From an uncultured Oscillospiraceae bacterium (GTDB lineage Bacteria > Bacillota > Clostridia > Oscillospirales > Oscillospiraceae), in the NCBI GenBank assembly GCA_949494735.1, contig CATABD010000025.1, positions 1 through 33,175 of the forward strand: a stretch of DNA of 33,175 nt, in the 5' to 3' direction. The notes beneath the pieces are model-generated. The model saw only the letters and a program-made list of their open reading frames with translations, was not told the DNA's origin and searched no databases. Positions 1,348 through 9,177 of the stretch are shown here, piece after piece; the stretch's first letter is position 1; each line of letters starts with the position of its first letter. The position numbers were made by a program, and so were the translations under genes.

Positions 1348-3423
1348 ATGCCGCTGACACGGGATACTCCCCTGACCGACCTGCCGGGGGTGGGCCCCGC
1401 CAGGGGGAAGAAGCTGGAGAAGCTGGGCCTGCGTACCCTGGGGGACGCCCTGGAGCACCTGCCCCAGCGGTATGAGGACCGGCGGGAGTGCTGCGCCCTC
1501 CGGGACGCCCCCCGGGACCGGCCCTGCTGCGTTTCCGCCATGGTGGCGGAGACGCCCCGGGTGAGCTACATCCGCCGGGGGCTGTCCCTGGTGAAGGTGA
1601 AGGCGGTAGACGGCACCGGTACGGTGTACATCACCTTTTTTAACCAGGACTATATCCGGGAGGCGGTCCGCCGGGGGGAGAGCTATATTTTTTACGGGAC
1701 GGTGGAGCGGCAGGGGAACCTGTTTTCCATGACCAACCCGGTGTTCGAGCGGGAGGGGACCGCCCGGACCACCGGGCTCATCATGCCGGTATACCCGCTG
1801 ACGGCGGGCATCTCCAACAACCTGATGGCCGGGATCACCCGCCGGGCGGCGGGCAGCTGCCTGGACGGCCTGCCCGAGATCCTGCCCGCTGGGCTGCGCA
1901 GGGAGCATAAGCTGTGCCAGACCCAGTTTGCCCGGAAAAACATCCACTACCCCGCCGACTTCGAGGCGCTGGCCATCGCACGGCGGCGGCTGGTGTTCGA
2001 GGAGCTGTTCGTCCTCACCTGCGGTCTGGCCCAGCTCAAGGACCGCCGCTCGGCGGGGGAGGGCCGGGTGATGGAGGGTAGCCCGGCGGACTTCGCGGCG
2101 CTGCTCCCCTTCCCGCCCACAGGGGCCCAGCGCCGGGCCATGGAGGACATGGCCGCCGACCTGCGCTCCGGCAAGGCCATGAACCGGCTGGTGCAGGGGG
2201 ACGTGGGGTCTGGCAAGACGGCGGTGGCCGCTTTCGGGGCCTGGGCGGCGGCGAAAAACGGGGCGCAGTGCGCCCTGATGGCCCCCACCGAGCTGCTGGC
2301 GGAGCAGCACGCCCGGACCATGGAGGCCCTGCTCTCACCCGCCGGGGTGCGGGTGGGGCTGCTCACCGGCTCGGTGAAGGGGAAGGAGAAAAAGGCCCTG
2401 CTGTCCGCCCTGGCGGCGGGGGAGATCGACCTGGTCGTGGGCACCCACGCCCTGTTCTCCCAGGGGGTGGAGTACAAGGAGCTGGGGTTGGTCATCGCCG
2501 ACGAGCAGCACCGCTTCGGGGTGGCCCAGCGGGGGGCGCTGGCGGAAAAAAGCGGGGCCGTCCCGCCCCACATCCTGGTCATGTCCGCCACCCCCATCCC
2601 CCGGACGCTGGCCCTCATCATCTACGGCGACCTGGACGTGTCCGTCATGGACGAGCTGCCGCCGGGGCGAACCCCGGTGGACACCTTCCTGGTGGGGGAG
2701 GACAAGCGGGCGCGGATGTACGGCTTTGTCCGCAAACAGGTGGGCGAGGGGCGCCAGGTCTATATGGTGTGCCCGGCGGTGGAGGAAAACGGCGGCGGCT
2801 GGGAGGACGGCCCCGGCATGGATCTGAAGGCGGTCACCGCCTACGCCGGGGAGCTGCGGGAGCGGGTGTTCCCCGAGCTGCGGGTGGGCTTTGTCCACGG
2901 CAGGCTGAAGGCCAAGGAGAAGGAGGACGTGATGTCTGCCTTCCACCGGGGGGAGCTGGACGTGCTGGTGTCCACCACCGTCATCGAGGTGGGGGTGGAC
3001 GTGCCCAACGCCTCCCTCATGGTCATCGAGAACGCGGAGCGGTTCGGCCTGAGCCAGCTCCACCAGCTCCGGGGCCGGGTGGGCCGGGGAAAGCACAAAA
3101 GCTACTGCGTGCTGGTCACCGCCAGCCGCAGCGAGACGGCCCGGGAGCGGCTGCGGGCCCTGTGCGCCACGGGCGACGGCTTCCAGATCGCGGAAGAGGA
3201 CCTGCGCCTGCGGGGGCCCGGTGACTTCTTCGGCAAGCGCCAGCACGGCCTGCCCCAGCTGAAGGTGGCGGATTTTGCCGCCGACATGGAGCTGTTGAAG
3301 GAGGCGCAGGCGGCGGCCCGGGAGCTGGTCGCCGCCGACCCGGAGCTGAAAAAGCCCTCCCACCGGCTGCTGAAAAAGAAGGTTCGGGAGCTGTTCCGGG
3401 AGAACGGGGCGCTGTTCAGCTGA
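1348..3423 (+). CDS. recG: ATP-dependent DNA helicase RecG
   Basis: This 691-aa superfamily 2 helicase remodels stalled replication forks and Holliday junctions. The N-terminus (LPGVGPARGKKLEKLG) is the helix-hairpin/wedge entry typical of RecG, followed by an OB-fold wedge. Walker A is GDVGSGKT (284-291), Walker B DEQH is at 385-388, and MSATPIPRT lies in motif III. The C-terminal helicase lobe carries STTVIEVGVDVPNA and QLRGRVGRG, and the usual RecG tail follows. Length is normal for the family. The ATG at 1348 is chosen because a GAGGAGG site precedes it and the family N-terminus begins there; an in-frame ATG at 1285 has no such site. The gene is followed after 45 bp by the GTPase-nuclease gene, probably cotranscribed. 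Confidence 0.97.
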   Translation: MPLTRDTPLTDLPGVGPARGKKLEKLGLRTLGDALEHLPQRYEDRRECCALRDAPRDRPCCVSAMVAETPRVSYIRRGLSLVKVKAVDGTGTVYITFFNQDYIREAVRRGESYIFYGTVERQGNLFSMTNPVFEREGTARTTGLIMPVYPLTAGISNNLMAGITRRAAGSCLDGLPEILPAGLRREHKLCQTQFARKNIHYPADFEALAIARRRLVFEELFVLTCGLAQLKDRRSAGEGRVMEGSPADFAALLPFPPTGAQRRAMEDMAADLRSGKAMNRLVQGDVGSGKTAVAAFGAWAAAKNGAQCALMAPTELLAEQHARTMEALLSPAGVRVGLLTGSVKGKEKKALLSALAAGEIDLVVGTHALFSQGVEYKELGLVIADEQHRFGVAQRGALAEKSGAVPPHILVMSATPIPRTLALIIYGDLDVSVMDELPPGRTPVDTFLVGEDKRARMYGFVRKQVGEGRQVYMVCPAVEENGGGWEDGPGMDLKAVTAYAGELRERVFPELRVGFVHGRLKAKEKEDVMSAFHRGELDVLVSTTVIEVGVDVPNASLMVIENAERFGLSQLHQLRGRVGRGKHKSYCVLVTASRSETARERLRALCATGDGFQIAEEDLRLRGPGDFFGKRQHGLPQLKVADFAADMELLKEAQAAARELVAADPELKKPSHRLLKKKVRELFRENGALFS

Positions 3424-3468
3424 CGGGTATAGAACAAGGCGGACAGACCGCCGTGAGGAGAATGAAGA

Positions 3469-6033
3469 ATGAAACGGCTGACCATCGGCGTGATGGCCCA
3501 TGTGGACGCGGGAAAGACCACCCTGTCCGAGGCCATGCTGTACCGCGCCGGCGCGGTACGCAGGCTGGGCCGGGTGGACCACGGCGACGCCTTTTTGGAC
3601 ACCGAGGAGCAGGAGAGGAAGCGGGGGATCACCATCTTTTCCAAGCAGGCCCGGCTGAGCTGGGAGGGGTGGGAGTTCACCCTGCTGGACACCCCGGGCC
3701 ACGTGGATTTCTCTGCCGAGACGGAGCGGGCGGTGCAGGTGATGGACTACGCGGTCTTGCTGGTCAGCGGCGCGGACGGGGTGCAGGGCCACACCGAGAC
3801 CCTGTGGAAGCTGCTGGAGCGTCACCGGGTGCCCACCTTCCTTTTTATCAATAAGATGGACCAGCCGGGCACGGACCGGGAAGCGCTGCTCTCCCAGCTC
3901 CGGGAGCGCCTGTCCGACGGCTGCGCGGATTTTTCCGGCGGCAGGGAGGAGCTTTTGGAGCACGCCGCCCTTTGCGATGAGGCGCTGATGGAGCGCTATC
4001 TGGAGACGGGAGGGCTGGACGACGGGGATTTGTCCGCCCTGATTGTGGAGCGGAAGCTTTTCCCCTGCTACTTCGGCGCGGCGCTGAAGGAGGAGGGGGT
4101 GGACGCTCTGTTGGATGGCCTGGCCCGGTACGCCCTGGAACCGGACTGGCCGGAGAAGTTCGCCGCCCGGGTGTTTAAAATTTCCCGGGACGACAGGGGG
4201 GAGCGGCTCACTTGGATGAAAATCACCGGGGGCGCGCTGAAGGTGCGTGACACGGTGAAGGGCCCGGACTGGGAGGAGAAGGCCACCCAGCTGCGCCTCT
4301 ACTCGGGCGCCAAATTCACCCCCGCCGGCGAGGCCCCGGCAGGGACGGTGTGCGCCGCCGCCGGCCTGACCCGCACCCGGGCGGGCCAGGGCCTGGGGGC
4401 GGAGGAGAACTGGGCGGGGCCGGAGCTGGAGCCGGTACTGGCCTACCAGGTGCTGCCCCCCGAGGGGGGGGACGCGCATACCCTGCTGGCTCAGCTGCGG
4501 ATTTTGGAGGAGGAGGACCCCCAGCTCCAGGTGGAGTGGAACGAGGGGCTGGGGGAGATCCGGCTGCGGCTCATGGGGGAGGTGCAGCTGGAGGTGCTCT
4601 CCCGGCTGATGGAGCGGCGGTTCGGGACGCAGGTGTCCTTCGGCCCCGGGCGGATTGTGTATCTGGAGACCATCACCGCCGCGGCGGAGGGGGTGGGGCA
4701 CTTTGAGCCCCTGCGCCACTATGCCGAGGTTCATCTGCTGCTGGAGCCGCTGGAGCGGGGGGCGGGGCTGGTGCTGGATACTGTTTGTTCGGAAAACGAG
4801 CTGGACCGCAACTGGCAGCGGCTGATTCTGACCCACCTGATGGAAAAGGAGCACAAGGGGGTGCTGACGGGCGTGCCCATCACCGATATGAAGATCACCC
4901 TGCTCACAGGGCGGGCCCACCTCAAGCACACCGAGGGGGGCGACTTCCGCCAGGCCACCTACCGGGCGATGCGCCAGGGGTTGATGGGCGCGAAAAGCGT
5001 ACTGCTGGAGCCCTGGTACGCCTTCCGGCTGGAGGCGCCCGCAGGCAGCATGGGCCGGGCCATGACGGATTTGCAGCGGATGGGGGCGGAGCTCCGGCCC
5101 CCGGAGCAGCAGGGGGAGACGGCCATCCTGGCCGGCAGCGTCCCCGTGTCCGAGCTGGGGGGCTACTGGACCCAGGTAGCCGCCTATACCGGGGGGCGGG
5201 GCCGGCTGTCCTGCACGGTGGAGGGCTACCGCCCCTGCCATAACGCCGAAGCTGTCATTGAGGCCACCGGCTACGACCCGGAGCGGGACTTGGAGAACCC
5301 CGCCGGGTCGGTGTTCTGCGCCCACGGGGCGGGGTTCAACGTGCCCTGGGATCAGGTGCGGGAGCACATGCACCTGGACAGCGGCTGGCGGCCAGCCGGG
5401 GTGCAGCCCGCGCAGGAGGCCGCCCCGGTCCGCCGGGAGGCCATGAGCTATGAGTCAAGGGCGGCGCTGGACCGCGAGCTGGAGGCCATTTTTCAGCGGG
5501 CCTACGGCCCGGTAAAGCAGCCCCACGCCTTCCGGCCGGCGCAAAAGAGCGCGCCCCCAAAGCCAAAGCCCTGGAAGGGCTTGAAGGTGCGGGACGGGGA
5601 CGATTACCTGCTGGTGGACGGCTACAATATCATCCACGCCTGGGATGGGCTGCGCGCCCTGGGTCGAAAGGATCTGGACAGCGCACGGGAACGGCTCATC
5701 AGCCGGCTGCGCAACTACCAGGGGTGGAAAAGGTGCAAGGTCATTGTGGTGTTTGACGCCTACAAGGTGAAGGGAAACCCCGGCAGCATGGAGCGGCTGG
5801 GCGATCTATGGGTGGTATATACCAAAGAGGCGGAGACGGCGGACATGTATATCGAAAAGACCACCTATGCCCTGGCGCAGGAGCGGAAAGAGCACCGGGT
5901 GAGGGTGGCCACCTCCGACGGGTTGGAGCAGATGATTATTTTGGGGCACGGGGCGGTGCGTATGCCCGCAGCGGAGCTGGAATTTGAGGTGGAACAGGCG
6001 GAGGGGGAGATCCGCCGGATCATCGGGGGATAG
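3469..6033 (+). CDS. EF-G/TetM-like translational GTPase fused to a Rae1-type NYN nuclease domain
   Basis: This is an 854-aa two-part protein. Residues 1 to about 640 are an elongation-factor-G-like GTPase of the ribosomal-protection branch. Visible are the P-loop AHVDAGKT (10-17), RGIT (52-55), DTPGH (74-78) and NKMD (128-131), then domains II-V. A Pro/Lys-rich linker (about 645-710) follows. Residues about 713-854 match YacP/Rae1, the NYN/PIN-like endonuclease that cleaves mRNA in the ribosomal A site of Bacillus subtilis. That part has LLVDGYN (D717, N720), VVFDA (D763), ETADMYIE (D792) and ATSDG (D817), so the acidic metal site appears complete. Inference: the GTPase half docks at the A site and delivers the nuclease. 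Automated pipelines may call it a tetracycline-resistance protein, but the fusion and position next to recG argue for a housekeeping or rescue role. GAGGAG precedes the start. Confidence 0.9.
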   Translation: MKRLTIGVMAHVDAGKTTLSEAMLYRAGAVRRLGRVDHGDAFLDTEEQERKRGITIFSKQARLSWEGWEFTLLDTPGHVDFSAETERAVQVMDYAVLLVSGADGVQGHTETLWKLLERHRVPTFLFINKMDQPGTDREALLSQLRERLSDGCADFSGGREELLEHAALCDEALMERYLETGGLDDGDLSALIVERKLFPCYFGAALKEEGVDALLDGLARYALEPDWPEKFAARVFKISRDDRGERLTWMKITGGALKVRDTVKGPDWEEKATQLRLYSGAKFTPAGEAPAGTVCAAAGLTRTRAGQGLGAEENWAGPELEPVLAYQVLPPEGGDAHTLLAQLRILEEEDPQLQVEWNEGLGEIRLRLMGEVQLEVLSRLMERRFGTQVSFGPGRIVYLETITAAAEGVGHFEPLRHYAEVHLLLEPLERGAGLVLDTVCSENELDRNWQRLILTHLMEKEHKGVLTGVPITDMKITLLTGRAHLKHTEGGDFRQATYRAMRQGLMGAKSVLLEPWYAFRLEAPAGSMGRAMTDLQRMGAELRPPEQQGETAILAGSVPVSELGGYWTQVAAYTGGRGRLSCTVEGYRPCHNAEAVIEATGYDPERDLENPAGSVFCAHGAGFNVPWDQVREHMHLDSGWRPAGVQPAQEAAPVRREAMSYESRAALDRELEAIFQRAYGPVKQPHAFRPAQKSAPPKPKPWKGLKVRDGDDYLLVDGYNIIHAWDGLRALGRKDLDSARERLISRLRNYQGWKRCKVIVVFDAYKVKGNPGSMERLGDLWVVYTKEAETADMYIEKTTYALAQERKEHRVRVATSDGLEQMIILGHGAVRMPAAELEFEVEQAEGEIRRIIGG

Positions 6034-6093: not shown

Positions 6094-6134
6094 CAGGACC
6101 CGACAGAACAATTCTGCCGGGTCCTGGCTTTTCT
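6094..6134 (+). terminator. Intrinsic terminator after the GTPase-nuclease gene
   Basis: A 15-bp stem with one mismatch, CAGGACCCGACAGAA against TTCTGCCGGGTCCTG with a 3-nt loop, is followed by GCTTTTCT. It ends the recG unit. Confidence 0.85.
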
Positions 6135-6282: not shown

Positions 6283-7137
6283 ATGCCTTACGGAAATGTA
6301 TTCACAAAAATCAACCGGGAATATTACCAGCTCACCGGCGCAGAGAAAAAAATCGCGGACTACATCCTCTCCCAGCGGCAAGAGTGCCAATACATGTCCA
6401 TCTCCGAGCTGGCGGAGGTCGCGGAGGTGGCGGAAGCCACCGTGTCCCGGTTCTGCCGCCGCCTGGGTTACCGGGGATACAGCGCTTTCAAGTTGGCGGT
6501 TGCGGGGGCCAGCGCGGGGCAGCGGCCGGTCAACCCGCTGTACGGGGAGATATTGGCGGAGGACAATGTGGGGGAGATGTGCCGGAAGATCTGTGCAGCG
6601 GACGTGGACGCCATTACGCAGACCCTGGCCATGATTGATCCCGCAGCCATCACCGCGGCGGCGGATCTGCTGCTGGGGTCGGACCGGGTGCTGTGCATGG
6701 GGGTGGGCGGCTCCATGATCCTGGCCTCGGAGGCGGCCCATCTGTTCTCCACCGCCCTTCCAAACTTTTACGCCGTGGAGGATTCCCATTTTCAGGCGAT
6801 CCGAGCTGCCATGCTCACCAGCCGGGACGCAGTGCTCTGTTTCTCCTACTCGGGCTCCACCCGGGATATGGTGGAGCTGCTGAAGCTGGCCCGGGAGAGG
6901 GGGGCGGGCACGGTGCTCGTCACCCGGTTCCCCAAGTCGCCGGGGGCGGCGCTTGCCGACATTGTGCTGGAGTGCGGAGCCAAAGAGGGACCGCTCCAAA
7001 TGGGCTCCATCGCGGCCCGTATGGGGCAGCTCTACCTCACCGACGTGCTGTTCAACGAGATGTGCCGCCGGGATATGGAGAGCTGCCGGGAGCGGCGCAG
7101 GGCGGTGGCCGACGCCCTGGCGGACAAGCATCTGTGA
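6283..7137 (+). CDS. MurR/RpiR family transcriptional regulator (amino-sugar control)
   Basis: This 284-aa protein has an N-terminal HTH_6 domain (residues 1 to about 77, with the recognition region ELAEVAEVAEATVSRFCRRLGY near 42-63) and a C-terminal SIS sugar-phosphate-binding domain (about 124-260). The SIS domain carries GVGGS (140-144) and SYSGSTRD (188-195). Family members sense phosphosugars through the SIS domain and repress or activate the neighbouring catabolic genes. Directly downstream are nagB and nagA, so the likely ligand is GlcNAc-6-P or GlcN-6-P. A strong AAAGGAGG site precedes the ATG. nagB has its own promoter in the 182-bp gap, so the regulator and enzymes are probably separate units under shared control. 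Confidence 0.92.
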   Translation: MPYGNVFTKINREYYQLTGAEKKIADYILSQRQECQYMSISELAEVAEVAEATVSRFCRRLGYRGYSAFKLAVAGASAGQRPVNPLYGEILAEDNVGEMCRKICAADVDAITQTLAMIDPAAITAAADLLLGSDRVLCMGVGGSMILASEAAHLFSTALPNFYAVEDSHFQAIRAAMLTSRDAVLCFSYSGSTRDMVELLKLARERGAGTVLVTRFPKSPGAALADIVLECGAKEGPLQMGSIAARMGQLYLTDVLFNEMCRRDMESCRERRRAVADALADKHL

Positions 7138-7193
7138 GGAATGGAAAAATATTTCACTTTACAAAATCCGTAAAAAATCATTTTCTCTTTGTG

Positions 7194-7222
7194 TTGACAA
7201 ATGTGGGCCGGAATTATACAAT
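7194..7222 (+). promoter_or_regulatory. Sigma-A promoter of nagBA
   Basis: A consensus -35 TTGACA is followed after 17 bp by TACAAT. The region also has a GAAA-N4-TTTC inverted repeat (7144-7155) and the decamer TATGATAAGG (7226-7235) shared with the regulator's promoter; both are candidate operator elements. Confidence 0.75.
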
Positions 7223-7319
7223 TGGTATGATAAGGCGCAGCCAGGCAGGGTGTTGAAAATGGGATGCCAGTCGCCTGAAAAGCCGCCCAACCAAAAAATT
7301 CATGTCGGAGGGTATTGCC

Positions 7320-8048
7320 ATGCGAATCTATTGTGAGAAGGATTACAACGCCATGAGCCGCCGGGCGGCCGCCGTCATCGCAGCCCAGGTGGTATCCAAG
7401 CCGGACTGTGTGCTGGGTCTGGCCACCGGCTCCACCCCCATCGGGGCCTACAAGCAGCTGGTGGAGTGGCACAGGCAGGGGGATCTGAGCTTTGCCCAGG
7501 TGCACTCGGTAAACCTGGACGAATATGTAGGGCTGGCCCCCACCCACGATCAGAGCTACCGCTATTTCATGCAGAATAATCTGTTCGACCATGTGGATAT
7601 CCTGCCCGAAAACACCAATGTGCCCAACGGCCTGGCCGCCGACGCGGCGGTGGAGTGCGCCCGCTATGAAGACGTGGTCAGGGCCTTGGGCTACGCCGAT
7701 TTGCAGCTGCTTGGCCTGGGCCGCAACGGCCACATCGGCTTCAACGAGCCCTGCGCCGAGTTCCCGGTGGCCACCCACCTGGTGGATCTGACCGAGAGTA
7801 CCATCGAGGCCAATGCCCGGTTCTTTGCCAGCGCCGGCGATGTGCCCCGCCAGGCCCTGACCATGGGCATCGGCACCATCATGCGCGCCCGCAGCATCCT
7901 AGTGGTGGCCAGCGGCGCGGACAAGGCGGAGGCGGTGCGCAAAACTGTGAACGGCCCCGTCACCCCGGAGGTGCCCGCCTCCATCCTCCAGCTCCACCCC
8001 AATGTCACCATCATTGGCGATGAGGCGGCGCTGAGCGGCCTTAAGTGA
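7320..8048 (+). CDS. nagB: Glucosamine-6-phosphate deaminase NagB
   Basis: This 242-aa enzyme converts glucosamine-6-phosphate to fructose-6-phosphate and ammonia, feeding amino sugars into glycolysis. Family motifs include GLATGSTPIGAYKQL near the start (phosphate loop), VNLDEYVGL (catalytic Asp), and GLGRNGHIGFNEP with the ring-opening His. Length is normal. The ATG at 7320 is preferred over an in-frame ATG at 7302 because the CGGAGGG ribosome binding site lies between them and the family begins MRIYC. nagA follows after 10 bp, so the pair forms an operon in the order nagB-nagA. Confidence 0.97.
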   Translation: MRIYCEKDYNAMSRRAAAVIAAQVVSKPDCVLGLATGSTPIGAYKQLVEWHRQGDLSFAQVHSVNLDEYVGLAPTHDQSYRYFMQNNLFDHVDILPENTNVPNGLAADAAVECARYEDVVRALGYADLQLLGLGRNGHIGFNEPCAEFPVATHLVDLTESTIEANARFFASAGDVPRQALTMGIGTIMRARSILVVASGADKAEAVRKTVNGPVTPEVPASILQLHPNVTIIGDEAALSGLK

Positions 8049-8058
8049 GGGACGGCGT

Positions 8059-9177
8059 ATGAAAATCACAGGCGGAAAGGTATTCGACCTGCGAAAGGGC
8101 TTTGTGGAGCGGGACGTATGCTTCGACGGCGCCCTGCTTACCCCGGACAGCCGGGACGGACAGAGCTATGACGCGGCAGAATGCTATGTGATCCCCGGCC
8201 TCACCGACGTGCACTTCCACGGCTGCGTAGGGGCGGATCTGTCCGACGGCGACGGGGACGGTCTCCAGGCCATGGCGAAGTATGAGCTGAGCCGGGGGGT
8301 GACCCAGATCTGCCCGGCGGGGATGACCCTGCTGGAGGACCGGCTGATGCAGGTGTGCCGCACGGCGGCGGAGCACAACCGGGCGGGCCGCCCCGGCGCG
8401 GACTTGGTAGGCATCAACCTGGAGGGGCCCTTCCTGTCCTATGCCAAGAAGGGCGCCCAGAACGGCGACTGGCTCCACGCCCCCGACGTGGCCATGCTGC
8501 GCCGGCTGGAGGAGGCGTCCGAGGGGCTGGTGAAGCTGGTGTCCGTGGCCCCGGAGGAGCCGGGCGCCATGGAGTTTATCAAGGAGGTGGCCGAGGAGGT
8601 GGCCGTCTCGGTGGCCCACACCACCGCGGACTACGACACCGCCCTGGAGGCCTTCCGGCTGGGGGCCAGGGAAGTCACCCACCTCTTTAACGCCATGCCG
8701 GGCTTCACCCACCGCGCCCCCGGCGTGGTGGGCGCGGCGCTGGACTCCCCCTGGAGCCGGGTGGAGCTGATCTGCGACGGCGTGCACATCCATCCCAGCG
8801 TGGTGCGGGCGGTATTTAAGATGTTCGGTCCGGACCGGGTGGTACTCATCTCGGACACCATGCGGGCCGCGGGTATGACCGACGGCAAGTACGACCTGGG
8901 CGGGCAGGAGGTCACGGTCAAGGGGCCGCTGGCCACCCTGGCGGACGGCACCATTGCCGGGTCGGTCACCGACCTGATGGCGGGCCTGAAAACCGCCGTC
9001 TCCTTCGGCGTCCCCCTGGCGGACGCGGTGCGTTCCGCGGCGGTCACCCCCGCCCAGGCCATCGGCATCTTTGACCGGGTGGGCAGCCTGGATGCGGGCA
9101 AGCGGGCCAACGCGGTGGTGCTGGACGGCGGGCTGAACGTGAAGGCCGTGTTCTTTCACGGGAAACAGGTGGTATAA
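8059..9177 (+). CDS. nagA: N-acetylglucosamine-6-phosphate deacetylase NagA
   Basis: This 372-aa amidohydrolase removes acetate from GlcNAc-6-P to give the NagB substrate. The metal and catalytic residues expected in the family are visible: H52-F-H54, E122 in NLEGPF, H187 in AHTTADYD, H208 in HLFNAM, DGVHIH (240-245), and the catalytic D266 in ISDTM. It is a cytoplasmic enzyme of GlcNAc and peptidoglycan recycling. It is cotranscribed with nagB and followed immediately by a terminator. No PTS or ABC uptake genes for amino sugars are in the window. Confidence 0.97.
   Translation: MKITGGKVFDLRKGFVERDVCFDGALLTPDSRDGQSYDAAECYVIPGLTDVHFHGCVGADLSDGDGDGLQAMAKYELSRGVTQICPAGMTLLEDRLMQVCRTAAEHNRAGRPGADLVGINLEGPFLSYAKKGAQNGDWLHAPDVAMLRRLEEASEGLVKLVSVAPEEPGAMEFIKEVAEEVAVSVAHTTADYDTALEAFRLGAREVTHLFNAMPGFTHRAPGVVGAALDSPWSRVELICDGVHIHPSVVRAVFKMFGPDRVVLISDTMRAAGMTDGKYDLGGQEVTVKGPLATLADGTIAGSVTDLMAGLKTAVSFGVPLADAVRSAAVTPAQAIGIFDRVGSLDAGKRANAVVLDGGLNVKAVFFHGKQVV

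Follow-up and report, generated by a model that had tools for sequence, protein, structure and literature searches.

What does a translational GTPase do with a ribonuclease attached to it? This question was raised by one gene in contig CATABD010000025.1 of an uncultured Oscillospiraceae bacterium (assembly GCA_949494735.1), which was analyzed over 33,175 nucleotides; this whole stretch is referred to as the window. The gene (positions 3469–6033, forward strand) was predicted from its open reading frame (ORF) and Pfam matches to encode a chain of 854 amino acids (aa), in which an EF-G/TetM-like GTPase is fused to a Rae1-type NYN nuclease domain. Judging from sequence comparison, we hold it to be somewhat more probable than an even chance that the product belongs to the translational GTPases, in a clade separate from that of TetM, bears a Rae1-type endoribonuclease domain on a ~70-residue tether, and acts in place of the stand-alone Rae1.

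The ORF starts with ATG and has zero internal stops, and a Shine-Dalgarno-like GAGGAG read from the sequence (3455–3460) ends 8 nt upstream of the start codon. Pfam and alignment placed five EF-G/TetM-type domains ahead of NYN_YacP, all on the forward strand, which bore out the single-chain architecture of the preliminary description. The G domain (GTP_EFTU, residues 3–221; 3475–4131) contains AHVDAGKTT, RGITI, DTPGH, and NKMD. It is followed by domain II (EF-G D2, residues 230–308; 4156–4392), which scored 24.7 bits, just below the Pfam cut-off of 27, domain III (EFG_III, residues 321–392; 4429–4644), domain IV (EFG_IV, residues 395–508; 4651–4992) with the tips GHFEPLRHY (410–418) and KHTEGGDFR (486–494), and domain V (EFG_C, residues 511–593; 4999–5247). 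The G motifs, including the His of DTPGH, together with domains II–V mark a translational GTPase, and the EF-G fold runs throughout this half. In an alignment of 50 fused proteins, K16 and DTPGH were invariant (50/50), T17 was kept in 49 and N128 in 48; the tip positions H411–Y418 and H487–R494 were each conserved in 43–50 of the 50, save for an F/Y exchange at position 412. Behind domain V lies a further module (residues 597–636; 5257–5376) of the form SVFCxHGAG..W....MH. In this region C590, C617, H619, and H635 were kept in 49, 47, 37, and 48 of the 50 fused proteins, respectively, and may form a metal site.

The C-terminal domain (residues 714–849; 5608–6015) belongs to NYN_YacP (PF05991), with 153 bits (E 8.1e-45) against a curated cut-off of 24.6. 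Searched alone against PDB sequences, the NYN part matched YacP/Rae1 of B. subtilis (5mq8 and 5mq9, E 5e-24) and nothing else up to E 1. A PDB search with the model of the C-terminal part found only Rae1 below E 0.001, and a further known fold was rejected. The comparison with Rae1 structures proposed earlier thus came out in favor of the Rae1 assignment. The structural match had 43–45% identity, and the four aspartates of Rae1 align with D717, D763, D792, and D817 of the window protein. These positions were Asp in 129/129 fused frames and 19/19 solo proteins, a count that left out 3 of 132 fused frames touching a locus end and 2 of 21 other NYN frames that were parts of fused genes; some organisms were reached by two routes and are represented more than once among the 132 frames. 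The claim that the acidic residues are intact therefore extends to the orthologs. The domain had also been called complete, which holds for the catalytic core and fails beyond it: the match covers profile positions 1–135 of 166, and the protein ends in a short tail.

That tail separates the fused from the solo form. Rae1 of B. subtilis is a separate protein of 170 aa whose C-terminus, EKWRRGDLD, places W164 and R166 inside an E-x-W-R-R motif. After the last catalytic Asp, 61–67 residues follow in 19/19 solo proteins, whereas the window protein has 37 residues after D817, without E-x-[WM]-R-R or a near form, the mark by which we define solo Rae1. E-x-[WM]-R-R was present in 12/19 solo and 0/130 fused proteins, and the loose form of E-x-W-R-R in 16/19 and 2/130 (two of the 132 fused proteins were left unscored); tails were shorter than 50 residues in 64/130 fused proteins. 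The structure 5mq9 is the W164L mutant of Rae1. R166P was recovered as one of several suppressor alleles, which the authors interpreted as a loss of Rae1 function (PMC6613710). The tail might help Rae1 to act on the ribosome when it is a solo protein; in the fusion, the GTPase might have made this tail dispensable.

The GTPase half could suggest a tetracycline resistance protein. When compared as a single sequence, it matched EF-G and TetM about equally; its profile, searched against the PDB, found TetO (392 bits) and TetM (387 bits) narrowly ahead of the best EF-G (379 bits). TetM/TetO share the five-domain EF-G-like GTPase with the window protein, but their profile match stops before the post-domain-V module and they differ from it at the second tip of domain IV. 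There, the SPV stretch of TetM/TetO, which we take to be the residues that displace tetracycline, aligns with part of KHTEGGDFR, and SPV is absent. They also differ in that the window protein carries a nuclease and lies outside the Tet protection family, since its best NCBIfam match, tet_protect, reached 404 bits, far from the cut-off of 775. Ribosomal protection against tetracycline or some other drug of the A site, to which the RNase would add a further resistance mechanism, has in its favor that tet_protect and TetO/TetM were nonetheless the best matches and that it was put forward in 2015 (Atkinson et al.; PMC4342817). We consider it improbable, given the distant score, the conservation of H487–R494 where TetM has SPV, and the plasmid records: of 1073 with any match, two spanned 80% or more of the fused chain, both were typed as non-mobilizable, and neither had an annotated drug-resistance gene within 6 kb besides the fused gene's own label. 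The misannotation as tetracycline resistance foreseen in the preliminary description does occur, as the fused protein of Agathobacter rectalis is labeled "TetM/TetW/TetO/TetS family tetracycline resistance ribosomal protection protein"; that of Monoglobus is a "translation factor GTPase family protein."

The architecture itself is already in print and is not new. In a single sentence, Atkinson et al. (2015; PMC4342817) mention that Tet proteins of "ten species of clostridiales" carry a YacP-like NYN domain, a possible case of drug resistance. Their fusion has the same architecture and is probably of the same clade; their sentence predates the characterization of Rae1. It was the only description of the fusion found in the literature searched, which left out several Rae1 papers and yielded no work on the function of the fusion.

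The fused ORF was confirmed by sequence comparison as a real gene, neither a chance product nor an assembly artefact, because single-frame full-length homologues recur across loci. An antisense ORF of 1012 aa (2335–5373, reverse strand) had no Pfam match at E 1e-5 and was discarded as a by-product of high GC content. PF05991 was searched in whole genomes of an order, a phylum, and a class sample, which overlap. In the order sample, 43/147 genomes had a match, 42 of them in frames of at least 833 aa, while the remaining one (G107) was cut by a contig end. Among 40 loci of the 42 other matches, 39 were single-frame full-length homologues with 48–67% identity and one was cut by a contig end. The phylum sample contained PF05991 in 208/398 genomes and a fused frame, recognized by GTPase profile and frame length, in 23/398. 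The class sample contained it in 189/291 genomes; for 149 genomes among the matches listed, 86 frames were of fused size (at least 840 aa), 57 of solo size (at most 220 aa), and six intermediate, an assignment made by frame length alone save for a few frames that were inspected. Named loci were picked for resemblance, as the best 80 of 590 matches to the fused query, and 79 of these 80 were single-frame fusions (L172 was split). Carriers among them were Intestinimonas butyriciproducens, Ruminococcus flavefaciens FD-1, Anaerovorax odorimutans, and Fusibacter sp. 3D3, as well as metagenome-assembled genomes called Herbinix, Flavonifractor, Lachnospiraceae, and Oscillospiraceae; the closest named relative among the matches listed was an uncultured Oscillospiraceae bacterium (L102, 84% identity). 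Measured by these predicted frames, Clostridia carry the fusion widely, and the doubt whether it might be unique to one genome or assembly was removed.

Five of the six intermediate frames were inspected (the sixth was G665). Two ran off the contig (G704 and G737), G601 had a stop and also ran off the contig, G584 had a frame change, and G743 had one stop. The interruptions in G743 (L293), G601 (L294), and G584 (L291) reflect either decay or sequencing error. Double PF05991 matches were both fused in G660, both of solo size in G368, and two contig-edge pieces in G471.

Where did the fusion come from? Scored with the GTPase profile, the proteins of the order sample fell into three tiers: 42 fused proteins with at least 989 bits; 11 unfused proteins with 647–827 bits in 10 genomes (frames of 634–667 aa, plus a 379-aa partial in G051); and a low tier with 403–458 bits, which stops near profile column 592–602. 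The middle tier represents unfused sister GTPases. Most of the sisters listed contained GHFEPLRHY and HTxGGDFR, and both tips were found in most of the middle tier. The SVFC/SIFC module was present in all 11 middle-tier proteins and six unfused sisters of the phylum sample. They have no NYN domain, and their C-terminus lies no more than ~20–30 residues from the start of the module, so that the post-domain-V module of the window protein corresponds to their C-terminus. Since the sisters stop where the linker starts, the fusion can be read as the old GTPase end, a linker, and the NYN domain. In a GTPase tree of 143 rows, the 115 fused rows (thinned from 129) formed one clade with a Shimodaira-Hasegawa-like approximate likelihood ratio (SH-aLRT) of 99, the 17 unfused sisters fell outside, and no unfused row was found within the clade; this tree came from a quick search without bootstrap, and a very long branch leads to one of its rows, an EF-G. 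In the NYN tree (147 columns, 77 rows), the 58 fused rows lay on one side with an SH-aLRT of 90, not starred. Within the sampled rows, the trees thus show a single inferred origin of the fusion.

Some unfused sisters occur in other settings. Those of Ligilactobacillus salivarius have ~49% identity, and on large plasmids of this species the sister was annotated as TetM-family resistance or as a translation factor GTPase, probably by the same misannotation. The sisters at L188 (G144) and L189 (G106) were identical over the compared region, even across two families (f20 and f3), which may reflect recent transfer or contamination; G106 has an additional, different copy. The viral-set contigs L242 and L243 start with an unfused sister frame (726 aa) that ends in the SVFC module.

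The linker of the fused proteins contains a conserved pattern. AlphaFold modeled the full protein with a mean predicted local distance difference test (pLDDT) score of 86 and a predicted template modeling (pTM) score of 0.66. Residues 645–663 and 683–707 were below 50 and flank a fusion-specific helix region (residues 661–683; 5449–5517), and the unfused sisters stop before this stretch. When the linker was modeled with the NYN domain alone, the helix-bearing blocks had mean pLDDT values of 67, 90, and 82. Conserved positions of this region among the 50 fused proteins were E670 (48/50), I674 (44/50), Thr678 (40/50; Ala in the window protein), and G680 (39/50). A first pattern matched 79/132 fused linkers; a strict and a looser pattern matched 87/132 and 109/132, against 0% and 0.3% of shuffled linkers (n = 2640), and part of the misses stem from a wrongly placed linker start.

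These features bear on whether the halves are linked in function at all. They might do separate jobs, with a ribosome-active GTPase and an RNase acting on other RNA, and the fusion would then only couple their expression. Five genomes with the unfused GTPase and a solo NYN as separate genes (G478, G339, G364, G455, and G764) and the long disordered linkers fit such a division. We regard it as unlikely, in view of the conserved linker helix, the loss of the solo Rae1 tail, the fused clade of 115 rows without an unfused row, and the description of Rae1 as an A-site nuclease in PMC12320835 and PMC6613710.

The distribution of the two forms suggests that the fusion replaced the stand-alone Rae1. 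By match counts in all sampled genomes, fused and solo matches that exceed the family cut-off were never found together, and an apparent exchange can be seen within two genera. Genus g370 includes the solo genome G592 beside four fused ones (G562, G663, G724, and G763); genus g365 includes the solo genome G779 beside two fused ones (G557 and G587). The two solo genomes contained no relatives of the GTPase at E 1e-80, and both have the order rlmB-rae1-sigH (rlmB by TIGR00186). In 5/5 fused genomes inspected (G724, G663, G562, G587, and G557; G763 was left out), the order is rlmB-gap-sigH, with no rae1 match. An extra gene lies between mrnC and rlmB in g365; the names mrnC and sigH are our own reading of the sequences. 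The genome of the window has a single PF05991 match, not a separate protein in the rlmB operon as expected of Rae1, and within 1.5 kb after rlmB neither this genome nor G013 has a rae1 match; another gene is found there. Mutual exclusion, the absence of rae1 at rlmB-sigH, and the tail loss together suggest the exchange, and the apparent replacement of an operonic rae1 adds support for a ribosome-related role. Second PF05991 matches in this fusion-carrying genus (G763:C20, G724:C1, and G663:C1) come from a small protein (frames of 163–165 aa) that resembles the start of NYN_YacP (positions 3–49) at 21 bits, below the cut-off.

How might the halves act together? When docked on the ribosome, EF-G and TetM have domain IV at the A site, and the GTPase would dock on stalled ribosomes in the same way. 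GTP hydrolysis would then release the GTPase, after which the tethered nuclease would move into the A site and cleave the mRNA, in that order because both can hardly occupy the A site together. The ribosome with the cut mRNA would afterward pass to transfer-messenger RNA (tmRNA). Delivery of the nuclease would in this way be driven by GTP. RelE-type nucleases would likewise cut A-site mRNA, but their fold is unrelated to that of the fused protein and they have no GTPase. A more detailed version, which we advance tentatively and rate at somewhat less than even, is that GTP-timed docking selects the ribosome state, that the GTPase took over the docking job of the lost tail, and that Clostridia swapped a free for a GTP-gated A-site nuclease, even within genera.

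The preliminary description proposed a rescue route distinct from tmRNA. This part was weakened, as the genome of the window has tmRNA (143 bits) and, according to a review (PMC12320835), Rae1 and RelE-type enzymes can cleave A-site mRNA and such cuts free the A site for tmRNA. With a tmRNA in the genome, it is more likely that the fusion acts upstream of tmRNA rather than instead of it. The genome also has another, stronger gene with EF-G domain IV (C67, 799-aa frame, 170 bits), taken as its EF-G; given both, the fusion probably substitutes for neither. The same gene counts against the idea that the protein serves in ribosome recycling or translocation while its nuclease trims rRNA or tRNA, as was originally proposed for NYN domains. 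The EF-G fold along the GTPase would suit such a factor, and the 2015 paper cites proposed rRNA/tRNA maturation for this domain (PMC4342817); later work locates the action of Rae1 on mRNA in the A site (PMC12320835; PMC6613710), and we consider the explanation improbable. A further EFG_IV match of the genome (G000:C69:3-224) lies at a contig edge, scored 96 bits in a frame of 175 aa, and is another EF-G copy or a fragment. At L048 (G090), an EF-G-like GTPase frame of 702 aa on a very long tree branch lies ~4.4 kb downstream of the fused gene on the same strand.

Defense against phages, by cleavage of ribosome-bound mRNA upon infection, was also considered. The combination of a nuclease with a ribosome factor would fit, as would the whole fused gene in two unannotated fecal "Bacteriophage sp." records. 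PADLOC returned 0 families at E 0.01, so that no known anti-phage system was recognized, and the neighbors of the fused gene are not conserved; we give this idea very little credence. The two records (MT835563.1, 5421–8015, 58% identity; MT835514.1, 15276–17762, 48%) contain either phage cargo or bacterial DNA.

Several observations weigh against a Rae1-replacing, GTP-delivered nuclease. The either-or counts ignore phylogeny apart from the two within-genus exchanges, and the solo genome G779 is 88% complete. PF05991 had no match in 104/147 order and 102/291 class genomes, so the function is dispensable in many genomes. Ten genomes of the order sample have an unfused sister GTPase and no PF05991 match, so the GTPase is useful without such a nuclease; among phylum genomes, the match was likewise absent in G533 and G484, which have unfused sisters, and in G509, which has a lower-scoring relative (538 bits). 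The pTM of 0.66 and the disordered linkers leave the position of the NYN domain relative to domain IV unfixed by the model, and the tail and linker patterns were composed after the sequences had been inspected. Conserved operon partners were not found among 1172 neighbors within six genes of fused frames, where the largest cluster comprised 19 loci at scattered positions.

To our knowledge, how Rae1 reaches particular ribosomes is an open question. A nuclease tied to a GTPase that replaced the free form within single genera would open this recruitment to experiment. If the proposed function is true, translational GTPases would gain a new type of activity, the destruction of mRNA, and one that is common in Clostridia, and a class of false "tetracycline resistance" annotations would be corrected.

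In the window, a recG-like gene lies 45 bp upstream of the fused gene. Downstream, a terminator-like hairpin with a T-run (6094–6133, forward strand) was noted; the scan gave a 5-pair site on the forward strand (6116–6128) and a 15-pair palindrome on the reverse strand (6094–6126), and five such sites in the scanned stretch against 2.2 in shuffles make this weak evidence. The hairpin is followed at 6283–9177 by genes for an rpiR/SIS regulator, a glucosamine-6-phosphate isomerase-like protein, and an amidohydrolase, an amino-sugar group that is apparently unrelated. In Monoglobus (L272, NZ_OY725736.1, "plasmid 12"), an arsenate reductase family gene is found near the fused gene, and nearby secA and spore-coat genes suggest that the record may be a piece of chromosome. 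In Agathobacter rectalis (L271, NZ_CP143948.1), an annotated pair of CopG-type antitoxin and BrnT-type toxin (5316–5824) adjoins the fused gene, at this one locus only.
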